Source: a virus | Strand: one strand, 5' to 3' | DNA: 64,000 nucleotides | IMG/VR virus record: IMGVR_UViG_3300017917_002280 | Span: 1-64,000 of that record | In this document: positions 5,312 to 64,000 of the stretch, one piece after another | Numbering within the stretch: position 1 is the stretch's first letter | How the letters are laid out: each line of letters begins with the position of its first letter | Program-made: the position numbers and the translations under genes | Notes under the pieces: model-generated | Database searches by the model: none | What the model saw: only the letters and a program-made list of their open reading frames with translations | What the model was told of the DNA's origin: nothing

Positions 5312-5873
5312 GATTTATCATCTCATTGTACGCATAGTATGCGATACCGATTGCATCGCCAACATCATTGTCTGTGATTTCCATATTAAATTTCTTATTA
5401 AAGTAATCAAGTGTTCTCTGCTTTCTTATTTCTCTTATTTGGCTTTTATACCATGAATCTTTTCTTCCGGGATTTGCTTGTGCAAAGTTTAATTTTTCCT
5501 GCTTGGTAAAATTTTTATTTCCTATATATGATTGCCAAGTTGTAGGAGAAATATCAATTACCTTATTTCCATTTTTTAATATTGCTGCCACGACAGATCC
5601 AAAAACCATTGACATCTTTATGCTGGCATCATGGGATTTTACCATAATTGGCGATTCTATGCAAACCAAATCAACTTTGTCAATTGAATCCATAAGGCTG
5701 TTAATTTTATTATTTGCATCAATGATTCTGTCGATCACATTGTCACCTTTAAATATAACCTTTCCCCACATTTTAGGCTTGCCGTCAAACAGGCAAAAGG
5801 CGAAAGAATTTGTAGATGAATCTATTCCAATAACAGAGTTTCCACGAATTTTACCTAGCTTGTTTAGCGACAT
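5298..5873 (-). CDS. RuvC-like Holliday junction resolvase
   Basis: RNase H-fold nuclease expected to cut branched DNA before packaging. From the ATG at 5,873 (GGAAG 9 nt upstream; an in-frame TTG 6 nt earlier has poor spacing) the protein has 191 residues. Visible motifs are IGIDSSTNSFAF (Asp18), LVCIESP (Glu73) and DNDVGDAIGIAYYA near the C-terminus, which supplies the last acidic ligands. This is the RuvC/poxvirus-resolvase arrangement. It sits with RecA and other nucleases, consistent with recombination-linked replication. Confidence 0.8.
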   Translation of the reverse strand: MSLNKLGKIRGNSVIGIDSSTNSFAFCLFDGKPKMWGKVIFKGDNVIDRIIDANNKINSLMDSIDKVDLVCIESPIMVKSHDASIKMSMVFGSVVAAILKNGNKVIDISPTTWQSYIGNKNFTKQEKLNFAQANPGRKDSWYKSQIREIRKQRTLDYFNKKFNMEITDNDVGDAIGIAYYAYNEMINHEAL

Positions 5874-12351: not shown

Positions 12352-12378
12352 GGCGGTGGGTAATTATACACCACCGCC
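12352..12378 (-). terminator. G/C-rich hairpin between ssb and dnaE
   Basis: An 8-bp perfect stem (GGCGGTGG with CCACCGCC) encloses an 11-nt A/T-rich loop. On the minus strand it lies just downstream of ssb but has no strong U-run (TCTACTTTATT follows), so it may be a weak terminator, an attenuator or a message-end stabiliser. The -10 box of the next promoter sits in its loop. Confidence 0.45.
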
Positions 12379-12392
12379 CCCAGCTTTGTCAA
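12363..12392 (-). promoter_or_regulatory. Promoter for dnaE operon, -10 inside a hairpin loop
   Basis: Minus-strand TTGACA (12,387-12,392) and TATAAT (12,363-12,368) are separated by 18 nt, with TG before the -10. The whole element fits between the ssb stop and the dnaE start. It would give dnaE, mazG-like, recA and the downstream genes their own transcription. Confidence 0.6.
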
Positions 12393-31854: not shown

Positions 31855-34800
31855 TTAAACACTCCCTTAGTTCAAGTGACATTTTTGGTCCTGCATTTTC
31901 TACAGAATATCCAATTGATGAGATAACAAATGTTTTTTCTCCAGATACTTTTTGACAAATTCCTTTATCTTTATAGAAAAATTTAACCTTATCTCCAATC
32001 TCTAATAAAGGATTTGCAAAAGCATCTACACTTATTGACATTTTTTCAGATGAAGCATTTTTCATAATCCAGTTTGCCAACTCTGTTGCTTCTTTTTGTG
32101 ATGATATAAACTCAGCCTGTAATGATAACGAATTGAGACCATACTTTTCTTTATTCTTTTCCACATTCAAAAACACTGGGGCTATATCGTTCGATGAAGA
32201 ATCTATATTGAATTTATTTTCATTTAGTCCAATTAAATCGTCAATCTTGACCGAAAGATCCTCGTTTGTTGATTTTTTAATTTTATAGCCAATTATCATT
32301 AGCGGAACGCTTGAATCTTCTCCAAGTTTTAGGGTGTCGCAGCAACAGTTTACCATCCAAAACTCTGCCCCAAAAGCTGTTGGCTTAAAATCAACTATTT
32401 TATATCTTCCCAAGTTTGATCCATATTCAGCAATCTGTGGTAAAAGTACTGGTGCGTCAAATCTTGCTTTAAACCTTTTAACCTCTCTACACACTTTTCC
32501 AAAATCATCGTAAAATGTAGATTTTGTTTCTGAATTAAGAAGTGTATTTTGAGTTACGGATTGTGCAGATATTGTTTTATTTTTTGCAGCAGTATATAGA
32601 TCCACATTTGGTGCATATGCTATATCTCCAGCATCATTTTCATCTATCATTCCATAATTTTTAAGTGTTTGACCATCATTTTCAGATGTTGCAAGGAAAT
32701 AGTCAAATAGTGCTTTTGTGTTGCCCCTAACAAAAAGTCCAGATTTCATTGAAGTGCCGTCAAATATTTTTGTTCCGTCTCTGTTTGCAACAATAGCAAG
32801 ATGATCTTCCCAATATACTTTTATTTTATTTGAAGAAATTACCACCCTAAGATCTGAAACAATTGCTTTTGAATCTGGATTTTGTGAATTATAATAAGAG
32901 ACTTCTGGAACTCTTGCGGTTGTAACAACCTTTTTACCAAGTATTTCTGGTTGAAGCTGACCATCTTTTGTTATTATTTTATAAAGATAAAGATTTTCAA
33001 AATCTGCGTCTTGTAATTTTTTAGCATTTGCAGTCGCACCAAAACTTATCAATTCAACAAAATAGCCTGTCGCATTACTTGTTCCATCCCCCTTTAATCC
33101 AAAAAATATACCTGCGTTGCCACTAACATAATCTTTATTGTCAGATGATTTTAAAATTAATTTTAATCTAGTTGACAAAACATTGTATCCTATTTTTGAT
33201 GATATTCCAATTCCAGAAATATATTTTTCAACATTATATAGTGTAGGAAATCCATTAATTGATCCAGAGGTTACTTCTGCAGATCCTAAATCAAGGTTTA
33301 GTCCAGTCATTGTTAAATTTTCAGCGACAGTATATCCATTAACAGATTTCTTTTTGGTACTCTTGTTTAATGTGACCTGAGTGCTTATAGTTTTTGTTGC
33401 TGAGTCAAATATTTTAATTGTGTTGATTGTTGACCAGCTTGATGAAATTCCATCTACTAGATGTTCGCTGATTGGCCCAGAGTTTTTATATGTTTTTGCA
33501 GCCCTTCCATGAGACTTTAAAGTATATTTTTTCAATGTATTTGAAACAAAAAGTAGAGATGCGGTTGGATCGTCAATATCAAAGTCAAGGTAGAGTATTA
33601 AATTGATTGGAGTTAAATATACTCCCGGAGAAGATTCTAGTTGTAATCTTTCCGTGTCGCTAAACAATATAGACGCTCCAATTTGACCTAAACTAGAATT
33701 AATACTATATTGGATTCCTTTATATCTTATTGTTTCATTATCAATATTAAAGTAACCAGTATATGATTTGTTTTTAGCAAGCAGTTGCATGTTTAGATTA
33801 TCAAATTTTATATGTAATTTATTTTTATCTGACTGGTTTAGTGAGTCATAAAATCTTCTAATGGCATCATATTCATTTTCTGCATTTATTTTATACGGAG
33901 TTGAAGATAAATCTGCAATTACTGAAGGGACAGACCCTTCTATTTTTTGAGCAAGTATTGTTGAAAATATTGTGTTTTCTTCATCATTGTCTGATGCCCT
34001 CCAAAGTGGCTCAACTACATAATTCATGTCATCCGATAATAATGAAAGGTCTCCTTTTGTCAAAGAATCTAGTTTATTTACCTCCGCCAGATCTTTTAAA
34101 AACTCTGGACTTTTTTGTAGTCCAAGCCCACTATATTCTATTTGCATGTCTGTAATTGGATACTGTATTGTTTTAGAAAATGAAGATATATTTGATATAT
34201 AACTTCCTGAAGTAATATATGAATATTCTGGGTCGTCTACGCCTACATTGTTTCTGTCACCGACCATCCACCAAGATACATTTGAATTTGAAACGGGCGA
34301 TGTTGCTCTTTCTTTTGTCATAACAGTAAAATTATTATTTGCATCCATGAACATTGCCAATTGACATGACACCGCCATCTCTTGTAATGTTTGGGCTACA
34401 GTATTTTCTTTTCTTGAAAAAAAGAATTGCATTGTTGGATCTTCATTTAAACCTAAATTTGAAACAAATTTATATTTTCCATATCCAATATTATCCAAGA
34501 AGCATAATATTGCCACGGAAGATGGAATACCTCTTTTATTTGCAAATACCATATCTGGTGATGGTGTAGATTTAAAAAACTTCATATAGTCTTCTACTTC
34601 TATAGAAGTTTGAAAACCTTCATCATCTTCTTGCCATGAATTTGAATATAAGGTTTTAATTGGTATTCTTACATCTTCAGAATTTTTCGTAACTATTGCA
34701 CTTATAGAAAATTTAACATTTGGATATAAATATTTACTGACAATTGAAAGATTTTGTAATGGCGAGAAGTATTTATCCACATTAGATAAAACTATTGTTC

Positions 34801-60332: not shown

Positions 60333-61025
60333 TTGATTAAAGTTCTTGACAATGGTTATGTAAAATTGATTAACAATATGGGTTCTGACATTGATGTTGT
60401 TAATGCTGCTAGAGCTTCTTTTGAAAAAGAAGTTTCTGAAATGTCAGAGGGTGATGATAAACTATTACGATTCCTGATTGAACATAAACATGATTCAACT
60501 TTGAGGCACTGCACTATGACTTTTGAAGTCTACGCACCGTTGATGGTCGCTCGCCAATGGTATAAGCATGCGGTAGCAAGCACACACTTGGACGACCAGA
60601 TGGGCTGGAACGAGTCAAGTCGCAGGTATATAACCGAAAATGAGGTCTTTTATATTCCCGAGCCAGAGCAATGGCGTTCCATGCCGGAAAATAAGAAGCA
60701 AGGCTCTGGTGGTCCGGTTTCGCCAGAAGTCGGCAACAAGTTTGAGGAATTGATGAATCGCACGGTGGAACTAGGGCTTGCGAATTACAGAGAAGCACTT
60801 TCGGCAAATATAGCCCCAGAACAGGCAAGGCTACTATTGCCTGCATACTCTATGTATGTTCGCTGGCGTTGGACAACATCTTTGAACTCCGTTCTTCACT
60901 TTCTTTCTTTGAGATTGAAGAATGATTCCCAATTTGAAATCCGGGAATACGCAAAGGCCATCTTGACTCAAATTGAGGATATATATCCAAGATCTATCGA
61001 ACATTGGATGAATACCCGTGTCTGA
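60333..61025 (+). CDS. thyX: Flavin-dependent thymidylate synthase
   Basis: Makes dTMP from dUMP using FAD and methylenetetrahydrofolate. 230 residues; starts with TTG after GAAAGG. Family patterns: HDSTLRHCTMTFEV (H-x-S-x3-H), VARQW (residues 72-76), NESSRRY (93-99) and a C-terminal LPAYSMYVRWRWTTSLNSVL, then FLSLRLKNDSQFEIREYAKAI. The signature R-H-R-x7-S region is altered: it reads K78-H79-A80, with Ser83 separated from Asn93-Glu94 by nine residues instead of one. Confidence 0.88.
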   Translation: MIKVLDNGYVKLINNMGSDIDVVNAARASFEKEVSEMSEGDDKLLRFLIEHKHDSTLRHCTMTFEVYAPLMVARQWYKHAVASTHLDDQMGWNESSRRYITENEVFYIPEPEQWRSMPENKKQGSGGPVSPEVGNKFEELMNRTVELGLANYREALSANIAPEQARLLLPAYSMYVRWRWTTSLNSVLHFLSLRLKNDSQFEIREYAKAILTQIEDIYPRSIEHWMNTRV

Positions 61026-61239: not shown

Positions 61240-61764
61240 TTGACTTGCATTGTTGCTGTAACAGATGGTAAAACCGTTCATATGGCTGCCGATAGAGGTG
61301 CTAGCGATGGACATGTGATTTTGAAGCTAGCAAAGCCTAAGATTCATAAAAATGGAGAATATCTCATCGGATATGCTGGATCTATGTCTGGTGGACAGCT
61401 TTTGCAATCAATCGCCCTTCCCGCCATTCCTAAGAAGGAACTTCACTCATTCATGCGTACAGGCTTTTTAAAGGCCCTTAGAGACGCGATTGAAAATTAT
61501 GGTATTGGAACATCAGAAGCAGATGAATCTGTCATCCTCGTGGCTTGTAGGGGTCGTATATTCGAAATTAGCCCTAGTGATTGGAGTGTTGCAGAATGGA
61601 GATCAACTGCCATCGGTTCTGGAGCACCTGTGGCTCTTGGAGCCATGTATGTCATGGAGTCAAATGGAGTTGAAGATTACAAAACCATTGTTACCACCGC
61701 CGTTGAAGCTGCCTGCGAATTGTCTCCAACTTGCAAATTGCCCATCGATTACGAGACAATTTAA
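61240..61764 (+). CDS. Proteasome/HslV-like Ntn-hydrolase
   Basis: 174 residues, about the size of HslV. It starts with TTG after AGGAG at 6-nt spacing. The next residue is Thr, which would be Thr1 after Met removal. Counted from it, Asp17 (MAADRG) and Lys33 (LAKPKIHKNGE) are at exactly the positions used by proteasome beta subunits and HslV. IGYAGSMSGGQLLQ fits the Gly-rich S-loop, and AIGSGAPVALGAMYV the later Gly-Ser-Gly motif. It is expected to be a threonine peptidase or related amidohydrolase; no ATPase partner was seen. Confidence 0.75.
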   Translation: MTCIVAVTDGKTVHMAADRGASDGHVILKLAKPKIHKNGEYLIGYAGSMSGGQLLQSIALPAIPKKELHSFMRTGFLKALRDAIENYGIGTSEADESVILVACRGRIFEISPSDWSVAEWRSTAIGSGAPVALGAMYVMESNGVEDYKTIVTTAVEAACELSPTCKLPIDYETI

Positions 61765-61890
61765 AACACCCACACAAATAGTACCTATTTTAGAAAAATG
61801 TGAATAATATTTTTTCTTGTACGATACACGATTTCTGGCAAAAAATCCCTTAATAAATAGTGAGCACATACGGCGTGTCGCCTTTGCGAT
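61765..61890. other. Non-coding spacer before the rightward cassette array
   Basis: No convincing gene. It is A/T-rich at first (ATATTTTTTCTTG near 61,808) and includes a CCCTT (61,845-61,850 area) with no matching AAGGG, so it resembles half of the array's terminators. At 61,871-61,881 is CGGCGTGTCGC, which recurs at the same distance upstream of the last promoter of the array. Confidence 0.5.
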
Positions 61891-61911
61891 GTCGTACCCC
61901 TATGCTAGTGT
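61891..61911 (+). promoter_or_regulatory. Array promoter P1
   Basis: GTC (61,891-61,893), 12 nt, TAGTGT (61,906-61,911), with TG two bases before the -10. The upstream box CGGCGTGTCGC is at 61,871. It drives the 41-residue peptide gene; the leader ends in CGAAAGG. Confidence 0.65.
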
Positions 61912-61947
61912 TCTACCTATCAGCAAGGACAACCGAAAGGAAATGAA

Positions 61948-62073
61948 ATGCTCTCCATCGCCACCTACGCCGCCGTCCTCTCCCGCATGGTCGGTGAGGG
62001 TACTTTCGACCTGACGGCTGATGAGGCTCAGGCTCTCATCGCCGCCGCCGTCAACGACAAGGCGTACCTCTAA
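61948..62073 (+). CDS. Small Ala-rich protein (41 aa)
   Basis: ATG after GAAAGG. Sequence begins MLSIATYAAVLSRMVGEG, then FDLTADEAQALIAAAVN. It looks like one or two amphipathic helices. G/C-rich codons (GCC, ATC, CTC) contrast with the A/T-rich genes to its left. Function unknown. Confidence 0.55.
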   Translation: MLSIATYAAVLSRMVGEGTFDLTADEAQALIAAAVNDKAYL

Positions 62074-62080
62074 CGACTAA

Positions 62081-62102
62081 GGTGGGGGCGAAAGCCCCCA
62101 CC
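62081..62102 (+). terminator. G/C-rich hairpin with GAAA loop
   Basis: Perfect 9-bp stem GGTGGGGGC/GCCCCCACC closed by a GAAA tetraloop, 7 nt after the stop of the 41-residue gene. It has no U-run, so it may act as an RNA-stabilising hairpin or a U-less terminator rather than an intrinsic terminator. Confidence 0.6.
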
Positions 62103-62105
62103 GAT

Positions 62106-62126
62106 GTCAGACCCTTGTGCTAGTAT
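62106..62126 (+). promoter_or_regulatory. Array promoter P2
   Basis: GTC (62,106-62,108), 12 nt, TAGTAT (62,121-62,126), with TG before the -10 (CCCTTGTGC). It begins 4 nt after the GAAA hairpin. Leader ends in GAATGAAAGG. Confidence 0.68.
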
Positions 62127-62156
62127 CTGACTAAGAACCGAATGAAAGGCTACAAA

Positions 62157-62300
62157 ATGAACGCAAAGACTATCGCCACCTACCGCGCCAAGTGCGAGGC
62201 TCAGGGTTTCGATTGGGCAGACTACTGCGACTGTGACGAGTGGACACTCTCAATGCTGTTTGACACTTGGGAAGAAGACGAAAGCGAGGACTACCTCTGA
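62157..62300 (+). CDS. Small acidic protein (47 aa)
   Basis: ATG with GAAAGG 7 nt upstream. Contains AKCEAQGFDWADYCDCDEWT (three Cys) and an acidic C-terminus (WEEDESEDYL). The stop overlaps the next start (TGATG). Function unknown; first of a three-gene cassette. Confidence 0.6.
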   Translation: MNAKTIATYRAKCEAQGFDWADYCDCDEWTLSMLFDTWEEDESEDYL

Positions 62301-62545
62301 TGAGTGACCGTAACGAAATGTTTGACCACTTTCTAGATGAGTGCTACCCAACTGTAAACATTGTGGGGATTGACTTCTACCCTGCCGACATTCTGTTTGA
62401 GTGTGACCCGATTGCGTATCGCGTTGCGATGAATGATTGGTTTGACGCGCAATGCTCTGACGGCATTCACAACTCAATCAGCGAAGGCTACAGCGTTTGC
62501 GATTGGTGCGGTGAGGATGTGCGCGATGAGGATGGTGACGAATGA
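62300..62545 (+). CDS. Small acidic protein with CxxCGED motif (81 aa)
   Basis: The start at 62,300 is in a TGATG junction; an earlier in-frame ATG would run backward through the 47-residue gene and is not preferred. Sequence MSDRNEMFDHFLDECYP ... DPIAYRVAMNDWFDAQC, ending CDWCGEDVRDEDGDE. The C-x-x-C-G-E-D end is shared with the 45-residue protein of the second cassette. Confidence 0.65.
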   Translation: MSDRNEMFDHFLDECYPTVNIVGIDFYPADILFECDPIAYRVAMNDWFDAQCSDGIHNSISEGYSVCDWCGEDVRDEDGDE

Positions 62546-62601
62546 CCACACTATTTATTCTCGCCATCATCCTGTTTGCTTCTGCGATGTTCGTGCCTTA
62601 A
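62542..62601 (+). CDS. Single-helix membrane peptide (19 aa)
   Basis: ATGA overlap with the CxxC gene. MTTLFILAIILFASAMFVP is almost wholly hydrophobic and just long enough to span the membrane. Very short, but the coupling and a matching membrane peptide at the same place in the second cassette support it. Confidence 0.5.
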   Translation: MTTLFILAIILFASAMFVP

Positions 62602-62603
62602 AT

Positions 62604-62625
62604 CCCTTGTAAATAAAGGGTTTTT
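62604..62625 (+). terminator. Intrinsic terminator h1
   Basis: CCCTT-(7 nt)-AAGGG hairpin followed by TTTTT, 2 nt after the 19-residue peptide stop. It is preceded by AAAT. It is one of five hairpins with the same stem and 7-nt loop. Confidence 0.75.
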
Positions 62626-62640
62626 CGCACCCTCAAATTT

Positions 62641-62663
62641 CCCTTATTCCATAAGGGTTTTTT
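62641..62663 (+). terminator. Intrinsic terminator h2
   Basis: CCCTT-ATTCCAT-AAGGG followed by TTTTTT. Second of a tandem pair with h1; its hairpin sequence is identical to h4. Confidence 0.78.
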
Positions 62664-62672
62664 GGGGGTCGC

Positions 62673-62703
62673 GGAGCGCCCCCGGACAAATCCGACATTT
62701 AAG
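62673..62703 (+). repeat. 31-nt duplicated element, copy A
   Basis: GGAGCGCCCCCGGACAAATC, then CGACATTTAAG; 28 of 31 positions agree with copy B at 63,680-63,710. In both copies it follows the terminator pair and is followed by a TGTGA/TCACA-type hairpin and CAGAAA-x-TCT. Confidence 0.85.
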
Positions 62704-62790
62704 ACAGTTACGAATGTGACGCAGTTCACAGAAAATTCTAAATTCGGACATTCAGGACATACATTTATGCATTCGGAGTGCATAAAAAAT

Positions 62791-62812
62791 CCCTTACGGA
62801 ATAAGGGTTTTT
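62791..62812 (+). terminator. Intrinsic terminator h3
   Basis: CCCTT-ACGGAAT-AAGGG followed by TTTTT, about 50 nt before promoter P3. Same 5-bp stem and 7-nt loop as the other four. Confidence 0.75.
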
Positions 62813-62865
62813 CAGCTGTCTATGCATAGGTATGCATAAGAAATACCTACCCCGCTGTGAAGTGT

Positions 62866-62886
62866 GTCAGGGGGGTATGCTAAGAT
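62866..62886 (+). promoter_or_regulatory. Array promoter P3
   Basis: GTC (62,866-62,868), 12 nt, TAAGAT (62,881-62,886), with TG before the -10 (TATGC). The intervening segment is G-rich here instead of ACCC. Leader ends in AACGAAAGGG. Confidence 0.62.
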
Positions 62887-62917
62887 GGGGGGTATCAACC
62901 AAACGAAAGGGCATCTA

Positions 62918-63163
62918 ATGTCTACTGTGAACCTTGTCAAGTCCCGTACTGTTGGTGGTATCCGCTTCACCACCCCCGCCATCGGCATGGAAATCACCAC
63001 GCCTAGCGGCGATTGGGGTATGGTGTATGAGGTCGCACCTCACACCACCAAAGATGGGCGCGAGTCGTATCGCTGTCGCATCGCCAAGTCTCACCGCCAC
63101 GAGTCTCGTTGGGTGACTGTCTATTGGTTGCGCTGTGATGGTGAGCGTTACACCGTAATCTAA
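62918..63163 (+). CDS. Small basic beta-rich protein (81 aa)
   Basis: The ATG at 62,918 follows GAAAGGG; longer versions starting upstream would read through promoter P3. Sequence MSTVNLVKSRTVGGIRFTTP, GDWGMVYEVAPHTTKDGRES, then RESYRCRIAKSHRHESRWVT. Probably a small SH3-like or OB-like barrel. Function unknown. Confidence 0.62.
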   Translation: MSTVNLVKSRTVGGIRFTTPAIGMEITTPSGDWGMVYEVAPHTTKDGRESYRCRIAKSHRHESRWVTVYWLRCDGERYTVI

Positions 63164-63164
63164 T

Positions 63165-63185
63165 GTCGTACCCTTGTGGTACACT
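63165..63185 (+). promoter_or_regulatory. Array promoter P4
   Basis: GTC (63,165-63,167), 12 nt, TACACT (63,180-63,185), with TG before the -10 (CCCTTGTGG). It overlaps the stop of the 81-residue gene by almost nothing, so no terminator separates the two units. Leader ends in AACGAAAGGC. Confidence 0.65.
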
Positions 63186-63216
63186 CACCCTAACCAACCA
63201 AACGAAAGGCAAACTA

Positions 63217-63381
63217 ATGGCTAGTCTTGAATCTGTCGGCGCACTTGTTGACGCTATTCAGGCATCGGGCAGGACAACCGACAGGGGTTCCGCTTATGCC
63301 TACGCTATGGGTATGGTTTCATCATACCTTGACGATGCGCTTATTGAGCGCATGACCAACGACATGAAGGCAGGTGCGTGA
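63217..63381 (+). CDS. Small helical protein (54 aa)
   Basis: ATG at 63,217 after GAAAGG. MASLESVGALVDAIQASGRT, then YAYAMGMVSSYLDDALIERM. Helical, Ala-rich. The stop forms TGATG with the next gene. First gene of the second three-gene cassette. Confidence 0.62.
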   Translation: MASLESVGALVDAIQASGRTTDRGSAYAYAMGMVSSYLDDALIERMTNDMKAGA

Positions 63382-63518
63382 TGGGTGCGATGAAAGACCT
63401 TGTGAATGCAGGGTGCTACTACTGTGGCGAGGACAACCCAACCGAACTGCGTAACTATGGCGAGATTGTTGCTATCTGCGAAAACTGTGCAACACTTGAG
63501 AGTGGGGAGTGTGTCTGA
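63381..63518 (+). CDS. Zinc-ribbon protein with CxxCGED motif (45 aa)
   Basis: GCYYCGEDNPTE (Cys12, Cys15), then AICENCATLE (Cys33, Cys36): a four-Cys zinc ribbon. The CxxCGED repeats that of the 81-residue protein in the other cassette. Stop and next start overlap (TGATG). Confidence 0.65.
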   Translation: MGAMKDLVNAGCYYCGEDNPTELRNYGEIVAICENCATLESGECV

Positions 63519-63625
63519 TGTTTTTATTCTATGCGCTTGTTTCTGTTGGTGCTGTGTTGTGGTTTGTTGATTTCATCGGTTGGGTGAATAAGCAAATCGA
63601 ACCCGAGAAATCCCTTATTCCATAA
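63518..63625 (+). CDS. Single-helix membrane peptide (35 aa)
   Basis: MFLFYALVSVGAVLWFVDFI is one membrane helix; the short C-terminus (NKQIEPEKSLIP) is polar. The stop codon lies inside terminator h4. It parallels the 19-residue membrane peptide of the first cassette. Confidence 0.58.
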   Translation: MFLFYALVSVGAVLWFVDFIGWVNKQIEPEKSLIP

Positions 63626-63634
63626 GGGTTTTTT
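63612..63634 (+). terminator. Intrinsic terminator h4
   Basis: CCCTT-ATTCCAT-AAGGG followed by TTTTTT; hairpin identical to h2. The last codons of the membrane peptide form its 5' arm. Confidence 0.75.
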
Positions 63635-63648
63635 CGACCCCCGAAAAT

Positions 63649-63670
63649 CCCTTTGTTTATAAGGGTTTTT
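63649..63670 (+). terminator. Intrinsic terminator h5
   Basis: CCCTT-TGTTTAT-AAGGG followed by TTTTT; second of a tandem pair with h4. Confidence 0.75.
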
Positions 63671-63679
63671 CGCCCCTGC

Positions 63680-63710
63680 GGGGCGCCCCCGGACAATTCG
63701 GACATTTAAG
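63680..63710 (+). repeat. 31-nt duplicated element, copy B
   Basis: GGGGCGCCCCCGGACAATTC, then GGACATTTAAG; three differences from copy A. Its first half can pair with upstream GCCCC-TGC (hairpin near 63,672). It is followed by TGTGAT-ACGA-ATCACA (63,713-63,728) and CAGAAACTCT. Confidence 0.85.
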
Positions 63711-63779
63711 TCTGTGATACGAATCACACAGAAACTCTCAGGAAACTCTAAAGATTCATCGGCGTGTCGCGTAGGTAAT

Positions 63780-63800
63780 GTCAGTACCTTGTGCTAAGAT
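63780..63800 (+). promoter_or_regulatory. Array promoter P5
   Basis: GTC (63,780-63,782), 12 nt, TAAGAT (63,795-63,800), with TG before the -10 (CCTTGTGC). The upstream box CGGCGTGTCGC at 63,760-63,770 is at the same distance as in P1. Leader ends in GAATGAAAGGG. Confidence 0.68.
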
Positions 63801-63829: not shown

Positions 63830-63994
63830 ATGACCACTCTCAAACTTCCGACCTCTTGGAACTACAGCACTTCTATGTACCGCAAGTGGACTTGTAAGGA
63901 CTGTGGCTTCTCCATTGAGGGTTCCACCTCTTACCGCCTGTTCCGAAAGGCTTGGGACGCTAACCACCTCACCAAACACAATGCGAATGCCTGA
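63830..63994 (+). CDS. C2H2-like zinc-finger protein (54 aa)
   Basis: ATG after GAAAGGG. WTCKDCGFSIEGSTSYRLFR then AWDANHLTKH gives Cys22-x2-Cys25 and His46-x3-His50, a C2H2-type finger with a long loop. Probably DNA- or RNA-binding. The gene ends 6 bases before the window edge. Confidence 0.65.
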   Translation: MTTLKLPTSWNYSTSMYRKWTCKDCGFSIEGSTSYRLFRKAWDANHLTKHNANA

Positions 63995-64000
63995 CCTTTG

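Follow-up and report, generated by a model that had tools for sequence, protein, structure and literature searches.

An array of actinophage promoters with an element near -26 laid out like the PafBC promoter motif of mycobacteria

We analysed bases 1-64000 (hereafter the window) of the 66306-base IMG/VR virus record IMGVR_UViG_3300017917_002280, close to the end of which an original prediction had placed five plus-strand promoters sharing a rigid GTC-N12-TANNNT element. These array sites are near certain to be promoters, and strong evidence sets them apart as a class of their own, marked by an element around -26, the motif being locked to the -10 box and to the implied transcription start and lying mostly outside open reading frames (ORFs) of at least 120 amino acids (aa). 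In sequence, their TGTCAG-N10-TANNNT layout is that of the motif published for PafBC, or RecA-nondependent promoter (RecA-NDp), sites of mycobacteria. The arrangement is probably best explained by an extended -10 box read by the host sigma-A polymerase together with a -26 element served by host PafBC or a sibling with a WYL domain.

Results

An array of at least eleven promoters

Direct reading and a pattern search placed the -10 hexamers at 61906, 62121, 62881, 63180 and 63795, as predicted, and in all five promoters the GTC lies exactly 12 nucleotides (nt) 5' of the -10 box, with TG two bases ahead of the box. The proposed ATGTC consensus holds for four of the five and fails for P3, which has GTGTC; ACCC is present in the spacers of P1, P2 and P4 and absent from the other two. 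Reading of the sequence also bore out the GAAAGG ribosome site that closes the leaders. When the pattern search was extended over the record, six promoters were added to the five reported, so that the plus-strand array comprises at least 11 by the record end:

61890..61911, plus strand: P1, TGTCGTACCCCTATGCTAGTGT, -26 element and extended -10 box (pattern search, shuffle test)
62105..62126, plus strand: P2, TGTCAGACCCTTGTGCTAGTAT (pattern search)
62865..62886, plus strand: P3, TGTCAGGGGGGTATGCTAAGAT (pattern search)
63164..63185, plus strand: P4, TGTCGTACCCTTGTGGTACACT (pattern search)
63779..63800, plus strand: P5, TGTCAGTACCTTGTGCTAAGAT (pattern search)
63999..64000, plus strand: first two bases of P6, at the window end (record 63999-64020)
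Record 64542, 64732, 65013, 65642 and 65937, plus strand: starts of P7 to P11

The array claim holds because five sites cluster on one strand within 2.2 kb. Between 61800 and 64000 the loose pattern GTC-N12-TANNNT occurs five times on the plus strand and never on the minus strand (shuffle mean 0.39); with the TG added, five sites compare with 0.008 in shuffles, and none of 2000 local shuffles of this region reached five sites, with or without the TG. Searching the whole window with the loose pattern, as had been suggested, yielded chance level (25 matches against 26.8 expected, hence no enrichment), the enrichment being local to the array. No TTGACA-like -35 at a spacing of 16-18 bp was found in the array, against 4.3 expected in shuffles. 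Two further matches were excluded: the site at record position 60442 (TGTCAGAGGGTGATGATAAACT), which lies within coding sequence common to two related loci (L135 and L136, described below), and a match at 5312 of locus L001, which is inside an ORF.

The motif in other virus records

The strict pattern GTCAGACCCYTRTGSTANNNT matched at least 119 IMG/VR stretches, whereas a spacer one base shorter (N11) matched 5 and one base longer (N13) matched 2, a control that is independent of how loci were chosen. Using the gene at 61240-61764, which adjoins the array, as a query, we recovered two near relatives, L135 and L136, with 93% protein identity; behind this gene L136 carries 14 motif promoters and L135 two, the latter record ending soon after. 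BLAST blocks between the two arrays were partly in different order, which indicates that promoter-gene units move. The wider set consisted of 122 loci (L001-L120, L135 and L136), and whole-record searches covered 50 of the 120 loci L001-L120, chiefly site-rich ones.

In the fetched loci, TGTC preceded TGNTANNNT at N12 735 times, one or more sites per locus being present through selection, against 9-31 times at any other spacing in the range 7 to 19. A separate spacing count also peaked at N5, N15 and N16, peaks that we take to be overlapping decoys, arising from TATGCT in the spacer and TA 3' of the -10 box. The pattern used for selection accounts for 166 of 645 unique sites, leaving 479 that do not match it. 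The pattern TGTCAG-N7-TG-N-TANNNT was present in all 50 records tested, and its reverse in none. A search of L001 and L136 against Rfam and a plasmid search with one promoter-gene cassette returned no match.

In cultured phages, BLAST with consensus 30-34-mers gave chance-like matches except for Microbacterium phage Savannah, in which TGTCAGACCCCTACGCTAACCT lies between the RecE-like exonuclease and ERF genes (L142 607-660, corresponding to Savannah 33606-33660). Similar DNA was found in 56 Microbacterium phage records. Five aligned Microbacterium phages keep TGTC, GA, CC and the -10 box, with A, G or T as the fifth letter, and one of them, Merry, has AACC in place of ACCC. Between the exonuclease and Erf genes, cultured Microbacterium phages carry TGTC(A/G/T)GACCC-N-ACGCTAACCT or a near variant.

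Position of the element relative to the transcription start

A logo of 629 unique sites read ATGTCAGACCCCTRTGCTARRAT followed by a Y-A-T triplet, the letters TGTC, TG, TA and T being fixed by the search pattern. Counting the first T of TGTC as 0, an A stands at offset 28, seven nt past the -10 box, in 544 of 657 unique sites, with T or C just ahead of it in 581 of the 657. An ATG begins at offset 28 for 62 sites and at offset 29 for 15, against about 10 or fewer at most nearby offsets; 77 of 648 sites look leaderless. ATGs of the Shine-Dalgarno (SD) type are scattered over offsets 46-58, showing no fixed motif-to-start-codon distance of the kind sought for start-associated sequences (SAS). The leaderless peak at 28 and this scatter together argue that the motif is bound to the transcription start rather than to the start codon. 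A start at offset 28 puts GTC at -27 to -25, in agreement with the predicted location near -26, and with the start so implied the element would be centred on -26, as in PafBC promoters. In 10 of the 11 record promoters the implied start lies 17-25 nt ahead of the ATG; the remaining one has little or no leader. TG occupies -15/-14 in 414 of 465 sites with TGTCAGA. Motif centres of the strict form fell within ORFs of at least 120 aa at 57 of 645 sites (0.088), although such ORFs cover 0.395 of the loci, and the equal frequency in coding regions that would have told against the original prediction did not occur.

Correspondence with the PafBC motif

The mycobacterial motif is published as tTGTCRgtg-8nt-TannnT (PMC5656591), in which the lower-case gtg marks the weaker part of the consensus, and as TGTCGG or TGTCAG-10N-TA-3N-T, working in one direction only (PMC8151990). 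Activated by single-stranded DNA (ssDNA), PafBC is placed between the promoter and domain 4 of sigma-A, with the helix-turn-helix (HTH) of PafB at the -26 motif and PafC at the sigma domain (PMC11804915). RecA-NDp promoters are reported from other actinobacteria (PMC8223512; PMC5087735), and Arthrobacter, Kocuria and Thermobifida have PafBC orthologues (PMC6789036). SiwR, another actinobacterial WYL activator, likewise requires a triplet at -26 (PMC10693628).

GTC-N12-TA and TGTCRG-N10-TANNNT describe the same arithmetic, so the phage and PafBC layouts coincide. TGTCRG-N10-TANNNT is present in 9 of the 11 record array promoters, 3 of the 5 in the window among them, and the full mycobacterial half-site TGTCRGTG in none of the 11. 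At letters 6-8 of the motif (T = 0), ACC is commonest among the 479 unselected sites, followed by TGG, TCC, CCC and AGG. Our strongest link to PafBC is that ACCC-type and TGTCRGTG forms share a position within the same viruses.

Host and candidate regulators

The portal and polymerase of the window are closest to those of Streptomyces phages of Stanwilliamsviridae (51% and 57% identical, respectively). WhiB was found in 18 of the 50 motif-bearing records (13 of the 18 records of at least 60 kb, by our own count), and as WhiB is described as confined to Actinobacteriota and their phages (PMC10202952), this supports actinobacterial hosts. In these 50 records, most of which are fragments, no WYL domain, no HTH_11 and no sigma-70 region 4 above the cut-off was detected, although three weak matches to the last were seen; the window record had no match to WhiB, WYL, HTH_11 or sigma-70 region 4. 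On these largely fragmentary records the distinct sigma factor put forward in the original prediction is unsupported and was set aside, the -10 being an ordinary extended sigma-A box, and the phage activator proposed beside it is so far unsupported as well. The window encodes RecA/UvsX, a single-strand DNA binding protein, ThyX, a DnaB-type helicase, a primase and a DnaE-type polymerase, together with one MerR/HTH_17 match. A GroES-like co-chaperonin is also encoded, at 1371-1667 (Cpn10, 2.6e-14).

Short transcription units behind the promoters

The array region has a GC content of 0.50, against 0.32-0.42 in the other 2-kb steps of the window, and several of its units end in terminator-like hairpins (CCCTTATTCCATAAGGG and kin):

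61948..62073, plus strand: 41-aa ORF behind P1, with GAAAGG site and no family match
62157..62300, plus strand: 47-aa ORF behind P2
62300..62545, plus strand: 81-aa ORF of the P2 unit, matching PHROG 9294 (function unknown)
62604..62620, plus strand: terminator-like hairpin 3' of the P2 unit
62641..62657, plus strand: terminator-like hairpin, CCCTTATTCCATAAGGG-T6
62791..62807, plus strand: terminator-like hairpin ahead of P3
62918..63163, plus strand: 81-aa ORF behind P3
63217..63381, plus strand: 54-aa ORF behind P4
63381..63518, plus strand: 45-aa ORF of the P4 unit, with CxxC pairs
63518..63625, plus strand: 35-aa hydrophobic ORF of the P4 unit
63612..63628, plus strand: terminator-like hairpin
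63649..63665, plus strand: terminator-like hairpin
63830..63994, plus strand: 54-aa ORF behind P5, with CxxC

None of nine array proteins reached the cut-off in a Pfam scan, and a PHROG scan gave one strong match, to uncharacterised PHROGs. In the wider set a downstream ORF could be assigned, by our own rule, for 489 of 648 sites; the median length was 58 aa, and 87% were shorter than 100 aa. Eighty longer ORFs chosen from 473 distinct proteins included 15 DUF932 and 6 DUF7178 members. A DUF932 gene of about 335 aa lies behind the promoter in many loci (for example L050:115-1173). The gene at 61240-61764 belongs to the HslV-like peptidase/proteasome-subunit family (PHROG 1040; Pfam Proteasome, 4e-05).

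A second upstream element and TTGACA-type promoters

P1 and P5 share CGGCGTGTCGC at the same distance, 20 nt 5' of GTC, as had been noticed originally:

61871..61881, plus strand: CGGCGTGTCGC, second upstream element of P1, about -47 to -37
63760..63770, plus strand: CGGCGTGTCGC, second upstream element of P5

Across the 122 loci we counted 247 copies of the word GGCGTGTCG and none of its reverse. At 206 unique places, TTGAC follows at offset 11 in 62 and GTC-N12-TANNNT at offset 19 in 26, offsets that put the element close to -47 in either promoter class; neither neighbour is present at 95 of the 206 places. Behind GGCGTGTCG-TTGAC, other promoters of the same viruses also carry the extended -10 box. 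The leftward genes of the window were confirmed to have promoters of the TTGACA/TATAAT type (for example at 12363-12392, ahead of the polymerase gene), from which those of the array differ, as claimed. In L003, L010, L044 and L053, TGTGA-N6-TCACA-like sites stand behind GGCGTGTCG; these resemble CRP/GlxR boxes.

Discussion

We propose that the array represents a run of short units of an actinophage, each transcribed from its own promoter. The host housekeeping sigma-A polymerase would read the extended -10 box, TGNTANNNT, and the -26 element (TGTCAG), standing in for a -35, would most likely be read by host PafBC activated by ssDNA, or by a WYL-domain sibling, through sigma adaptation. Because PafBC is activated by ssDNA, expression of the small genes would then rise on phage entry, during phage replication or on breakage of host DNA by the phage. 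We infer that the factor is PafBC and that the host possesses it, and likewise the timing and the ssDNA trigger. A host activator of the PafBC type seems likelier than the distinct sigma factor or phage activator first suggested.

Several observations weigh against this proposal. PafBC is assumed to be present in the host, and the conserved TG could make the promoters active without any activator. P1 and P4 have TGTCGT instead of TGTCRG, and the phage consensus continues with ACCC where mycobacteria have TGG, just 70 of 645 sites (in 41 of the 122 loci) having the mycobacterial form TGTCRGTG. TTGA is also found at -35 in 69 of 657 -26 sites, compared with 9 at a control position, so there is overlap between the two promoter classes. 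No bias towards repair functions was found in the downstream genes (80 longer ORFs), a finding that speaks against a role in damage repair alone and is in keeping with small take-over genes. In GTDB genomes the near-exact phage consensus gave three matches, none of them actinobacterial, the pattern being too strict for chromosomal promoters. The Streptomyces relatives Gilson (three matches to the TG pattern) and BillNye (none) have no array; TGTCRG-N10-TANNNT was found in neither TM4, which likewise has no array, nor phiC31, and Patience has two matches and no array. The absence of an array from Gilson, BillNye, TM4 and Patience indicates that cultured actinophages do not generally carry one. 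The Patience matches lie within or at the end of genes, not at gene starts, and were discarded as support.

A reading in which no damage-response activator takes part, and in which host sigma-A polymerase, unaided or helped by a general factor, recognises the extended -10 box and a spacer motif with GTC and ACCC as its own contacts, is unlikely. The TG at -15/-14, the use of the same -10 box behind GGCGTGTCG-TTGAC and the lack of WYL, HTH_11 or sigma region 4 regulators in the 50 records would all accord with this, but the six conserved positions between about -28 and -23, held at one rigid spacing, resemble an activator half-site, their layout is that of an activator motif known in this phylum (PMC8151990 and PMC5656591), and TTGACA-type promoters of the same phage lack the -26 motif. 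Still less probable is recognition of the -26 element by a phage-encoded activator or sigma-binding protein, whether WhiB-like, MerR-like or of another kind. WhiB in 18 of the 50 records and the MerR/HTH_17 match in the window phage are consistent with such a protein, and a shared factor may be missed in fragmentary records; against it, the window record matches none of the four regulator families sought there, and a host factor is the simpler account of a motif common to very different viruses and to Microbacterium phages. We regard as very improbable that the repeats are operators of a phage repressor overlapping ordinary promoters, like mycobacteriophage stoperators. Many copies in one orientation with a TGTCA core, and a likeness to the L5 stoperators that we presume, speak for operators, but a repressor operator needs no base-exact spacing to the -10 box and start, as is kept in hundreds of sites; nor did 47 other window proteins, scanned from part of the ORFs and matching 23 Pfam families, include an integrase, which gives no sign of lysogeny.

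The hundreds of such promoters in environmental viruses suggest that these phages tap the host damage alarm. More tentatively, and with slightly less than an even chance in our estimate, a large and mostly uncultured set of actinophages may, as a general strategy, run small, fast-changing genes from the host's ssDNA-sensing damage activator, their promoter-gene cassettes being interchangeable and a second activator site (CGGCGTGTCG) lying upstream. If true, a bacterial repair alarm would be a principal driver of phage gene expression in many actinophages from the environment. This would account for the reading of genes that lack a -35 and help to locate these viruses' small genes in metagenomes; PafBC would become a phage host factor, testable in Microbacterium or M. 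smegmatis.

Comparison with known systems

A literature search of limited depth found no phage use of PafBC promoters. With PafBC/RecA-NDp promoters the array shares TGTC(A/G)G, ten bases and TANNNT, one orientation, the -26 element and a dispensable -35. The phage promoters differ in standing in arrays ahead of tiny genes, in usually having ACCC in place of TGG, in the nearly fixed TG of the extended -10 box and, sometimes, in CGGCGTGTCG at about -47. SiwR-type promoters also have an activator triplet at -26 in actinobacteria, read by a WYL regulator, but there the triplet is GGA and serves one operon, whereas the phage motif has GTC and serves many viral units (PMC10693628). Ordinary sigma-A -35/-10 phage promoters have the same -10 and start geometry as the array, but the window array lacks the -35 that the leftward genes of the same phage possess. 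Short conserved words repeated ahead of many small phage genes are also known from SAS and extended SAS (ESAS) elements and from stoperators. In mycobacteriophages SAS are tied to the start codon and stoperators are free-standing, whereas the motif described here is fixed to the -10 box and the start site.

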